From: Bacteroidaceae bacterium
GTDB lineage: Bacteria; Bacteroidota; Bacteroidia; Bacteroidales; Bacteroidaceae
DNA length: 64,000 nucleotides
Direction of reading: 5' to 3'
NCBI GenBank assembly: GCA_024684455.1
Contig: JAIKWU010000076.1
Coordinates: forward strand, 25,645-89,644
Notes under the pieces: model-generated
Databases searched by the model: none
What the model was told of the DNA's origin: nothing
What the model saw: only the letters and a program-made list of their open reading frames with translations
Position numbers and translations under genes: made by a program
Shown: positions 2,921-61,384 of the stretch, piece by piece
Position numbering within the stretch: the stretch's first letter is position 1
How the letters are laid out: each line of letters begins with the position of its first letter

Positions 2921-3004
2921 ACGCTAAGCACTTGGAAAAATCACGCTAAGCACTTGGCGTTCGAACGCTAAGCACTTGGCGTGTTTTTTCCAAGTGCTTA
3001 GATG
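2921..3004. repeat. Palindrome cluster A1: four 18-bp units at 22-bp period
   Basis: Unit starts 2921, 2943, 2965, 2987; core CCAAGYRCTTRG, e.g. ACGCTAAGCACTTGGCGT, with 4-bp spacers. Confidence 0.92.
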
Positions 3005-5334: not shown

Positions 5335-5342
5335 AATCAGGT

Positions 5343-8500: not shown

Positions 8501-8655
8501 GACGTATTTTTTAGGCTGTTGACATGACGAATTCTCAAACAGCCCAAGTTTTTGATTGTCTGTAGGGGCATAACCCGTCTATGCCCTTTCCACAACAGGG
8601 CTTAGACAAGCTAAGCCCCTACAAGGAAACAGGAAATAAGGAGATATATGTATTA

Positions 8656-8784
8656 GTGACCCCTCCGCCCTTGCAGGGCACCTCCCCTTTCCGGGGAGGA
8701 GTTTTTCACGACAGCCATTAAGATGGATGTACCAGGAACTCCTCCCCGGAAAGGGGAGGAGGCGCGAAGCGACGGAGGGGTCAC
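8656..8784. repeat. Large imperfect inverted repeat (CTCCCC/GGGGAG type)
   Basis: Ends GTGACCCCTCCG.../...CGGAGGGGTCAC; inner CCTCCCCTTTCCGGGGAGGAGTT versus AACTCCTCCCCGGAAAGGGGAGG. Confidence 0.85.
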
Positions 8785-8788
8785 AAAA

Positions 8789-29463: not shown

Positions 29464-29547
29464 GTACCACCGCAGTGAAACAATAGTACCACCGCAGTGG
29501 TACAACTGTTTCAACGCAGTGGTACAACTGTTTCAGCGCAGTGGTAC
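29464..29547. repeat. Palindrome cluster B1: four 18-bp units at 22-bp period
   Basis: Units at 29464, 29486, 29508, 29530: GTACCACCGCAGTGAAAC, GTACCACCGCAGTGGTAC, GTTTCAACGCAGTGGTAC, GTTTCAGCGCAGTGGTAC; spacers AATA, AACT, AACT. Confidence 0.95.
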
Positions 29548-35426: not shown

Positions 35427-35549
35427 GCTCAGAGAATAGTCGTGAAAAAGTTTTCGGATGACAAAGGTACGAATTTTTTTTCTCAAAACTTCCTTCAACC
35501 TAAAAAAAAGATACTGAACTCAGGAAAATGAAAAATGTACTGAAAAGGT

Positions 35550-35633
35550 CATCCAAGTGCTTGGAAAAATATCTCCAAGTGCTTAGCGTACGAACGCCAA
35601 GTGCTTAGCGTGAATTTTCCAAGCACTTGGAGG
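35550..35633. repeat. Palindrome cluster A2: four 18-bp units at 22-bp period
   Basis: Unit starts 35550, 35572, 35594, 35616; cores CCAAGTGCTTGG, CCAAGTGCTTAG, CCAAGTGCTTAG, CCAAGCACTTGG. Confidence 0.92.
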
Positions 35634-35767
35634 TGCATCTGTGGTTCGGTGCGCGTATTTCGATAAAATATGTTAATTTATTTTGCTGTGCAGTGCGTAT
35701 TGATTATCTTTGCATGGTAAAAATGCTAACTAATACTCACATTATTTTTAATATAATAAAACTACGT

Positions 35768-46401: not shown

Positions 46402-46507
46402 GTACCACCGCAGAGGTACTTTAGTTTCACTGCGGTGGAACTTTTGTATCGGCGCAGTGAAATTTTAGTACCACCGCAGTGAAACAACTGTACCACTGCG
46501 GTGAGGA
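46402..46507. repeat. Palindrome cluster B2: five 18-bp units at 22-bp period
   Basis: Starts 46402, 46424, 46446, 46468, 46490: GTACCACCGCAGAGGTAC, GTTTCACTGCGGTGGAAC, GTATCGGCGCAGTGAAAT, GTACCACCGCAGTGAAAC, GTACCACTGCGGTGAGGA; degenerate sixth half-unit TTGGTAC. Confidence 0.95.
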
Positions 46508-46701
46508 CACTTTGGTACAAAAGTTTATTGTTCAGGAATGATGGATTTCCTCCATTGCTTTGCGTATATCGAACTCACCTTAAATAATAATTATATTTTT
46601 TTCTTTTTTAAATTCTTTATTGATGTTGTTAAGTTGTTGATAGTGCGGAAAACTTTTTACGTATTTCTTTGGTCGTTCAGTTATTGTTTTGAGAGTCAGA
46701 G

Positions 46702-57931: not shown

Positions 57932-58882
57932 TCATTGAAGTTGTTTTCTCTTTGCGCGTACCATGAAGAAGATGCCGATGAGCACAAAGGGAATGCTCAG
58001 CATCTGTCCCATGTCGAGCGGCAGCGTACCGTCGTCAACGCCGCCCTGCACTTCTTTCAGAAATTCGATGAAGAAACGGAACGTGAAGATGGATGCGAGG
58101 CAGAAGCCGAAGTAGAAGCCGCTGCCGGCACGACGCCATTTCTTATAAATGAGATAGGCGATGAGGAAGATGACGATGTAGGCCAGCGCCTCGTACAGTT
58201 GGGAGGGATGACGCGGCACGAGTTGGTCGCCCACCATCGCTTCCTGCGTATGGAACAGGAATGCCCAGGGCACGTCGGTCTGGCTGCCTATGATTTCGGA
58301 GTTCATCAGGTTGCCCAGACGGATAAATGCGGCAGGCATGGCGGCCGTCACACCAAAGATGTCGAGCACCTGCATCGTCGGCAGTTTCGTGCGTCGGAGA
58401 TAGAGCACGATGGCCAGGAACAGGCCGATGGTGCCACCGTGCGACGCCAGACCTGCGTAGCCGGTGTAGTGCCATTCGGACGGGAAGGTGTCATACTTAA
58501 TGGGCAGCAGCATTTCAATCCAGCCTTGTGTGCTCGTCAGGTAGTAGTCGGGTTCGTAGAACAGGCAGTGACCGAGCCGTGCACCGATGATGATGCCGAA
58601 GAAGCAGTAGAAAAGCAGCGGGTCGAACTTGCCCGTCGGCTGCAACTTCCCCCGTTTGTCGGGCGCAGGGTCAATCTGCTCTTGGCGGTACATCCAGCGC
58701 ACGAAGAGGAAGCCCGACAGGATGGCCAGCACCCAGCACAGCGCATACCAGCGCACCGTGACGGGACCTATGCTGAACGCCTCGACCGAGGGTTGCCAGT
58801 CGATGAAGAGCGGGAGCCCCACCCCCCTGACCCTCCCTACGAGGGAGGGGAGTATATAGTTCAATGTGAATAAGAAATTCAT
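57932..58882 (-). CDS. lgt: Prolipoprotein diacylglyceryl transferase with repeat-derived N-terminal insertion
   Basis: FSIGPVTVRWYALCWVLAI; ARLGHCLFYEPDYYL; HGGTIGLFLA; RPS-like HPSQLYEA. Confidence 0.96.
   Translation of the reverse strand: MNFLFTLNYILPSLVGRVRGVGLPLFIDWQPSVEAFSIGPVTVRWYALCWVLAILSGFLFVRWMYRQEQIDPAPDKRGKLQPTGKFDPLLFYCFFGIIIGARLGHCLFYEPDYYLTSTQGWIEMLLPIKYDTFPSEWHYTGYAGLASHGGTIGLFLAIVLYLRRTKLPTMQVLDIFGVTAAMPAAFIRLGNLMNSEIIGSQTDVPWAFLFHTQEAMVGDQLVPRHPSQLYEALAYIVIFLIAYLIYKKWRRAGSGFYFGFCLASIFTFRFFIEFLKEVQGGVDDGTLPLDMGQMLSIPFVLIGIFFMVRAKRKQLQ
58817..58856. repeat. Repeat copy inside the lgt coding sequence
   Basis: CCCCACCCCCCTGACCCTCCCTACGAGGGAGGGGAGTATA; inverted partner at 58918-58957. 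Confidence 0.85.
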
Positions 58883-58917
58883 CTGTATAAAGAAATAAAG
58901 GTCAATGAAAAGAAGTA

Positions 58918-58957
58918 TCTACTCCCCTCCCTCGCAGGGAGGGGCAGGGGGGTGGGT
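58918..58957. repeat. Inverted repeat copy upstream of the lgt start
   Basis: Reverse complement ACCCACCCCCCTGCCCCTCCCTGCGAGGGAGGGGAGTAGA; close match to 58817-58856. Confidence 0.85.
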
Positions 58958-58966
58958 CTGCTGTTT

Positions 58967-61087: not shown

Positions 61088-61207
61088 GTTTGACTTTTTC
61101 CAAGCGTGAGCACGATACCACAGTTCATTCCCCACCATTCCCCCTGCCATTCTTCGCCATTCTTCACCGAAAAGATACCCCTGCCGAACATCAAAATCAT
61201 CCAATCC

Positions 61208-61315
61208 GCAGTTGAAACTCAAAATTTAACTTAAATTCCCATAAATATAACTTAAATTTATGTAAATTTAACTTGAATTTGTATAAACATAAGTTAAATT
61301 TTGAGTTTCAACTGC
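61208..61315. repeat. Palindrome cluster C: four 17-bp units at 21-bp period within a perfect 25-bp inverted repeat
   Basis: Arms GCAGTTGAAACTCAAAATTTAACTT (61208-61232) and AAGTTAAATTTTGAGTTTCAACTGC (61291-61315); units centred 61230, 61251, 61272, 61293. Confidence 0.92.
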
Positions 61316-61318
61316 AGT

Positions 61319-61384
61319 GTGGTGATGTTTGTGCTGGAGCGTGGTGATGTTTGTGGTGGAGAGGTGTGATTTTTTTGGTGCCGT
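61319..61384. repeat. 22-bp direct repeat, about three copies
   Basis: GTGGTGATGTTTGTGCTGGAGC / GTGGTGATGTTTGTGGTGGAGA / GGTGTGATTTTTTTGGTGCCGT. Confidence 0.8.

Follow-up and report, generated by a model that had tools for sequence, protein, structure and literature searches.

Between the divergent genes for MnmG/GidA and a GH127 beta-L-arabinofuranosidase lies a short cluster of palindromes, array A2, and its position raises the question of whether it regulates either gene or belongs to something distributed more widely in the genome. The window analyzed here was a 64,000-nucleotide stretch of a 2.79-Mb draft genome of a Bacteroidaceae bacterium (98 contigs, 87.6% complete). A similar array, A1, was present near ribD, and the identities of mnmG, the GH127 gene and ribD were confirmed by Pfam.

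Layout of array A2 and its relation to A1

The features at the two loci were as follows (coordinates are those of the window).

35550..35633, no strand assigned: array A2, four imperfect 18-bp palindromes with a 22-bp period and 4-bp linkers
35550..35567, no strand assigned: A2 unit 1, CATCCAAGTGCTTGGAAA, with a right half-site of the TTTCC type
35572..35589, no strand assigned: A2 unit 2, TCTCCAAGTGCTTAGCGT
35594..35611, no strand assigned: A2 unit 3, ACGCCAAGTGCTTAGCGT
35616..35633, no strand assigned: A2 unit 4, TTTCCAAGCACTTGGAGG, with a left half-site of the TTTCC type
35682..35712, plus strand: candidate GH127 promoter, TTTG (-33), 19 bp and TATCTTTG (-7), starting about 49 bp past A2
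35462..35469, minus strand: candidate mnmG -7 box, TACCTTTG, about 80 bp from A2
2921..3004, no strand assigned: array A1 of family A, inverted relative to A2, about 30 bp past the ribD stop codon

A2 is 84 bp in size, with 4-bp gaps between its 18-mer units, and the letters from 35550 to 35633 are, in order, CAT CCAAGTGCTTGG AAAAATATCT CCAAGTGCTTAG CGTACGAACG CCAAGTGCTTAG CGTGAATTTT CCAAGCACTTGG AGG. A sequence-only reading of this DNA had placed the units at 35550, 35572, 35594 and 35616, joined by a GGAAAAAT junction, a GCGT-ACGA-ACGC centre and a TTTTCC junction, and each of these was found in the sequence. The same reading had described A2 as the second copy of family A, with spacing identical to that of A1 and with TAAG/CAAG swaps in the half-sites. 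The family and the spacing held, but the number of copies is about 130 rather than two. The half-site differences were as described, but were largely an effect of orientation: the two arrays were identical at 70 of 84 positions when one was inverted (reverse complement) and at 60 of 84 when compared directly. On this alignment, A2 is best read as A1 inverted.

Abundance and placement of the arrays

Across the genome, the family A two-unit pattern had 313 matches per strand, compared with none for a reversed control. Array statistics were drawn from 1.06 Mb (38% of the genome), in which 49 family A arrays were found, or one per 21.7 kb, which extrapolates to about 130 per genome. With a tolerant unit definition, 34 of the 49 had exactly four units. 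Palindrome arrays of the A2 type are far more numerous than chance allows.

Thirty-one four-unit family A arrays, oriented by their inner units, aligned without gaps over 84 bp. The 12-bp core, C(C/T)AAG-NN-CTT(A/G)G, held 1.69 bits per position, a value somewhat inflated because the arrays were seeded by strict core matches, while the three adjoining bases (ACG/CGT), which are outside the core match, held 1.31 bits and the four bases at the linker centre 0.32 bits. The cores were separated by 10-bp spaces and the units were variable, with two recurrent half-site types: an internal one, ACGCYAAG, and another, TTTCCAAG or TCTCCAAG, that is mostly on the inward-facing side of an outer unit. Beyond the array ends, information dropped away over about 10 bp, and the flanks contained neither conserved sequence nor mirror identity (0.336 within vs 0.345 between). 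Because the most similar family A arrays, which were 90-95% alike, had unrelated flanks, the arrays appear to disperse as units.

Genes were called heuristically. On these calls, 45 of 48 arrays were clearly intergenic, and the remaining three overlapped predicted gene ends. Their orientation relative to genes and transcription was random, with no preferred direction. In 13 of the 19 tandem gene pairs that could be tested, the array followed the stop codon within the first quarter of the spacer (p ~0.0009), and there were 36 Bacteroidetes-type -7 boxes between arrays and downstream starts where 2.8 were expected. A2 followed this placement rule: it is upstream of the recognizable GH127 promoter, in which TTTG begins at 35682 and TATCTTTG at 35705, and overlaps neither this promoter nor the mnmG -7 box. 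Apart from GH127, which reflects a bias of the search, and large proteins that are secreted or on the surface, no gene recurred beside the arrays. The nearest named relatives by GH127 protein were mostly rumen Prevotellaceae/Bacteroidaceae, and no alignable mnmG-GH127 spacer was obtained from named close relatives.

Another motif, GCAAAGTTACGATTAAGTGAGCGAAAA, was repeated at window positions 5339, 19296, 49347, 49420 and 61048. Its complement, CGCTCACTTAATCGTAACTTTG, which was also seen in L237 and L171, resembles an extended -7 promoter element in the genus.

The location of A2 between two divergent promoters had been taken to raise a regulatory possibility, and would suit a specific operator for mnmG and/or the GH127 gene. 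However, the roughly 130 copies are found beside functionally unrelated genes and outside promoters, divergent spacers account for only 15 of the 45 arrays classified, and A2 itself misses both core promoters. Nothing marks out mnmG or GH127 among the neighbors of the arrays, and there is no support for a role of A2 in local regulation; a dedicated operator is very improbable, though an indirect influence of A2 on the two genes is conceivable.

Probable double-stranded sites and further families

When folded as RNA, A2 had a predicted energy of -41.4 kcal/mol (z = -8.3), a strong fold that is due to its palindromes. This fold, and the frequent location of arrays after stop codons, would be expected of an RNA or single-strand hairpin element, such as a REP/REPIN, a bidirectional terminator or an mRNA 3'-end stabilizer. 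However, compensatory covariation was absent from the 31-array alignment at both levels, as covariation in the unit hairpins was not above that of shuffles (330 of 500 shuffles were as high) and the array-long hairpin paired worse than 500 of 500 shuffles. C..A mismatches were frequent in family A units, and in the favored unit, CTAAGCACTTGG, and its complement, one strand has a T.G pair where the other has a C.A mismatch. The lack of covariation, this asymmetry and the random orientation indicate that the units look like double-stranded protein sites. The third of the arrays that occupy divergent spacers and the absence of an Rfam match also argue against RNA. These data favor double-stranded DNA over RNA, and the hairpin reading, already disfavored, is improbable.

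Arrays were also sought with a de novo detector that called for four units with a period of 20-24, mutually alike and palindromic, and that required no set sequence. Many arrays of unrelated sequence were detected, both in this genome, where they belong to families A, B, E-like and C, and in its relatives. Shuffled DNA (1.66 Mb) and E. coli sequence (150 kb) yielded no arrays. The convincing arrays had periods of 21-23; counts for individual relatives are approximate because some of the arrays detected there were simple tandem repeats. In other words, four-dyad arrays are a class and not a single family. The window includes the following members of other families.

29464..29547, no strand assigned: family B array of the GTACCACCGCAGTGGTAC type, with the same architecture as A2
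46402..46523, no strand assigned: family B array, one of 15 full-length 123-bp copies
61139..61384 (outer limits approximate), no strand assigned: family C composite, with four 21-bp AT-rich dyads at 61222-61301

The other 14 full-length family B copies were 89-93% identical to the one at 46402-46523. Family C also had 15 copies, and its inner arrays of four 21-bp dyads aligned without gaps over 158 bp. On each side these dyads are flanked by approximately four inverted 22-bp units, after which conservation falls sharply. The outer inverted repeats were considered as covarying RNA stems, a reading that was rejected (identity 0.585 within vs 0.560 between elements); they are further 22-bp units. 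Both families have inverted-repeat ends, and the extra conserved flanks on their copies show that some elements extend beyond their four-unit array.

Several further observations were made on these repeats. On one side, three family B copies share about 100 bp of additional conserved sequence, so that they look like parts of a longer mobile element. The inner A-tracts of the family C element at 61139-61384 recur about once per helical turn, which suggests that the DNA is curved. A 21-bp tetrad family, ATGGAAAACTTTTCCAT, found at L063:1279, L063:21716 and L194:12036, has about 25 conserved bases on its 5' side and about 80 on its 3' side; judging by these flanks, some tetrads are inside longer repeated elements. 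A separate palindrome family consists of long G+C-rich inverted repeats (CTCCCC...GGGGAGGAG) at window positions 58815-58959 and 8653-8787, and similar sequence was seen in sister species G009 (L237).

Turnover between species and comparison with known systems

Family A was found in 4 of 13 genomes of the genus, and a narrower family A pattern in 6 of 301 genomes of the family, across two genera. The genomes compared were incomplete drafts, and the orthologous comparisons, made with species whose flanking DNA was about 75-95% identical, were few: they involved this genome (G000) and sister species G008 and G009. Some orthologous sites were filled, and others were empty, decayed or switched. 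Of the family A arrays in this genome, three were absent from the orthologous sites in G008 or G009, one G009 array was absent from its site here, and one G008 array was partly deleted and decayed at its site here.

The dominant family differed by species, with CYAAG(CA/TG)CTTRG in this genome, CYGAGCGCTCRG in G009 and AATATCANTGATATT in G008. This genome had 313 pairs of the A-type CYAAGYRCTTRG and none of the CYGAG-type CYGAGYRCTCRG; G009 had 13 and 99, respectively. G008 had nine and five, and the 21-bp AATATCANTGATATT family dominated its sampled 316 kb. In one spacer with conserved flanking genes, the arrays of G000 and G009 aligned in register, with different unit sequences, which may represent either one changed array or two insertions.

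Neither a phage nor a plasmid origin was indicated, as family A matched a single one of 2.9 million viral contigs and no plasmid, and the family B pattern had 0 matches in the corresponding check. No mobilizing enzyme for the arrays was found in this genome, which, at 87.6% completeness, had no match to the Y1 (RAYT) transposase (PF01797). In G009 (L179:1160-1360 and 1481-1960), an A array that has expanded to about nine units is about 130 bp from a gene for a Y1 (IS200/RAYT-like) transposase, but this gene is flanked by its own, different palindrome, CACCCTGAAGGGGTG, and mobilization of the RAYT/REPIN type was rejected.

In population behavior, the closest analogue is the REPIN (PMC3116915). 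Like REP/BIME and REPIN-RAYT elements, the arrays are palindromic, extragenic and species-specific, approximately 100 bp long and of high copy number in a single genome (hundreds of copies for the known elements), with sequence that drifts between species (PMC3116915). Unlike REPINs, which consist of two inverted REPs kept as a hairpin, the arrays here are four tandem dyads with a strict 22-bp period, and they pair less well than all 500 shuffles. The arrays also differ from CRISPRs, which have identical repeats and long unique spacers, since the units vary and the spaces are 10 bp.

The BrickBuilt MITE of Porphyromonas gingivalis, also of the Bacteroidales, is likewise intergenic, scattered through the genome and built of 23-nt repeats, but it contains 1 to 22.8 direct repeats with a leader and tail and has 19 copies (PMC4596501). 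Family A mostly has exactly four 22-bp dyads and about 130 copies, without conserved flanks and without direct repeats set between a leader and a tail. As for the features of MITEs, insertion sites had no clear target-site duplications, boundaries were not clean enough to show them, and family A flanks had no mirror identity; families B and C have inverted-repeat ends.

BrickBuilt is nevertheless a precedent (PMC4596501) for a passive selfish repeat, MITE- or minisatellite-like, that spreads without host function and whose units are conserved through recent copying or the needs of its own transposase. The restriction to the genus, high copy number, extragenic location, gain and loss, and the 15 near-identical family B copies are all consistent with such a repeat. 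Against it, the linker centres of families A and C are nearly randomized while units and spacing are fixed in the gap-free alignments of 31 A and 15 C arrays, which argues for continuing constraint rather than recent copying alone. A passive selfish repeat is unlikely.

In architecture, the closest working analogue is provided by the Lrp-type regulators. Archaeal and bacterial Lrp-type dimers bind clustered 13-17-bp inverted repeats whose centres are separated by two or three helical turns, and DNA is wrapped by the higher oligomers (PMC2995911). The arrays resemble the regions bound by Lrp/AsnC octamers, in which four dimers and wrapping are matched to clustered dyads at two-turn spacing (PMC2995911), in having four units with a period of 22. 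Their copy number and their sequence turnover between sister species are not described for Lrp sites in the available part of that source (PMC2995911). This genome has only two Lrp genes, compared with at least four array families. At the 3' end of one of the two is a CGC-type A array, which is decayed in G000 and intact at the same place in G008. Such arrays were considered as a sign of autoregulation, which looked promising at this locus, but array density near 26 Lrp genes was no higher than background. No cognate Lrp, or other array-binding protein, was found.

The best explanation is that A2 is a double-stranded DNA element of about 84-90 bp, made up almost wholly of four dyad sites two helical turns apart. 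It is probably a member of an amplified, REPIN-like extragenic element whose units are predicted to dock a multimer of about four dimers. Each dyad would be bound by a dimeric DNA-binding protein, and the four dimers, all on the same helical face, would form a single complex, as in an Lrp/AsnC-type octamer. This complex would bend or wrap some 84 bp of the spacer DNA that separates transcription units and may affect chromosome topology or neighboring transcription. The array would spread within the genome through a copying process, and its recognition sequence would change along with the binder from species to species.

No description of a four-dyad array architecture was found in the open-access literature searched. 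More tentatively, the "tetrad array" could be an undescribed class of bacterial intergenic element, with four dyads two helical turns apart, whose architecture is conserved across rumen Prevotella/Bacteroidaceae relatives, whose recognition sequence changes between sister species in a concerted way across the genome, and whose sites might co-evolve with a multimeric DNA-wrapping protein. Dispersed extragenic palindromes are already known; a fixed four-site build that outlasts full replacement of its sequence is unusual. The approximately 130 arrays per genome, and the sister species with switched specificity, are natural replicates that could be used to find the binder, to test chromosome organization between operons, and to study how the specificity of one protein and a hundred sites may change jointly.
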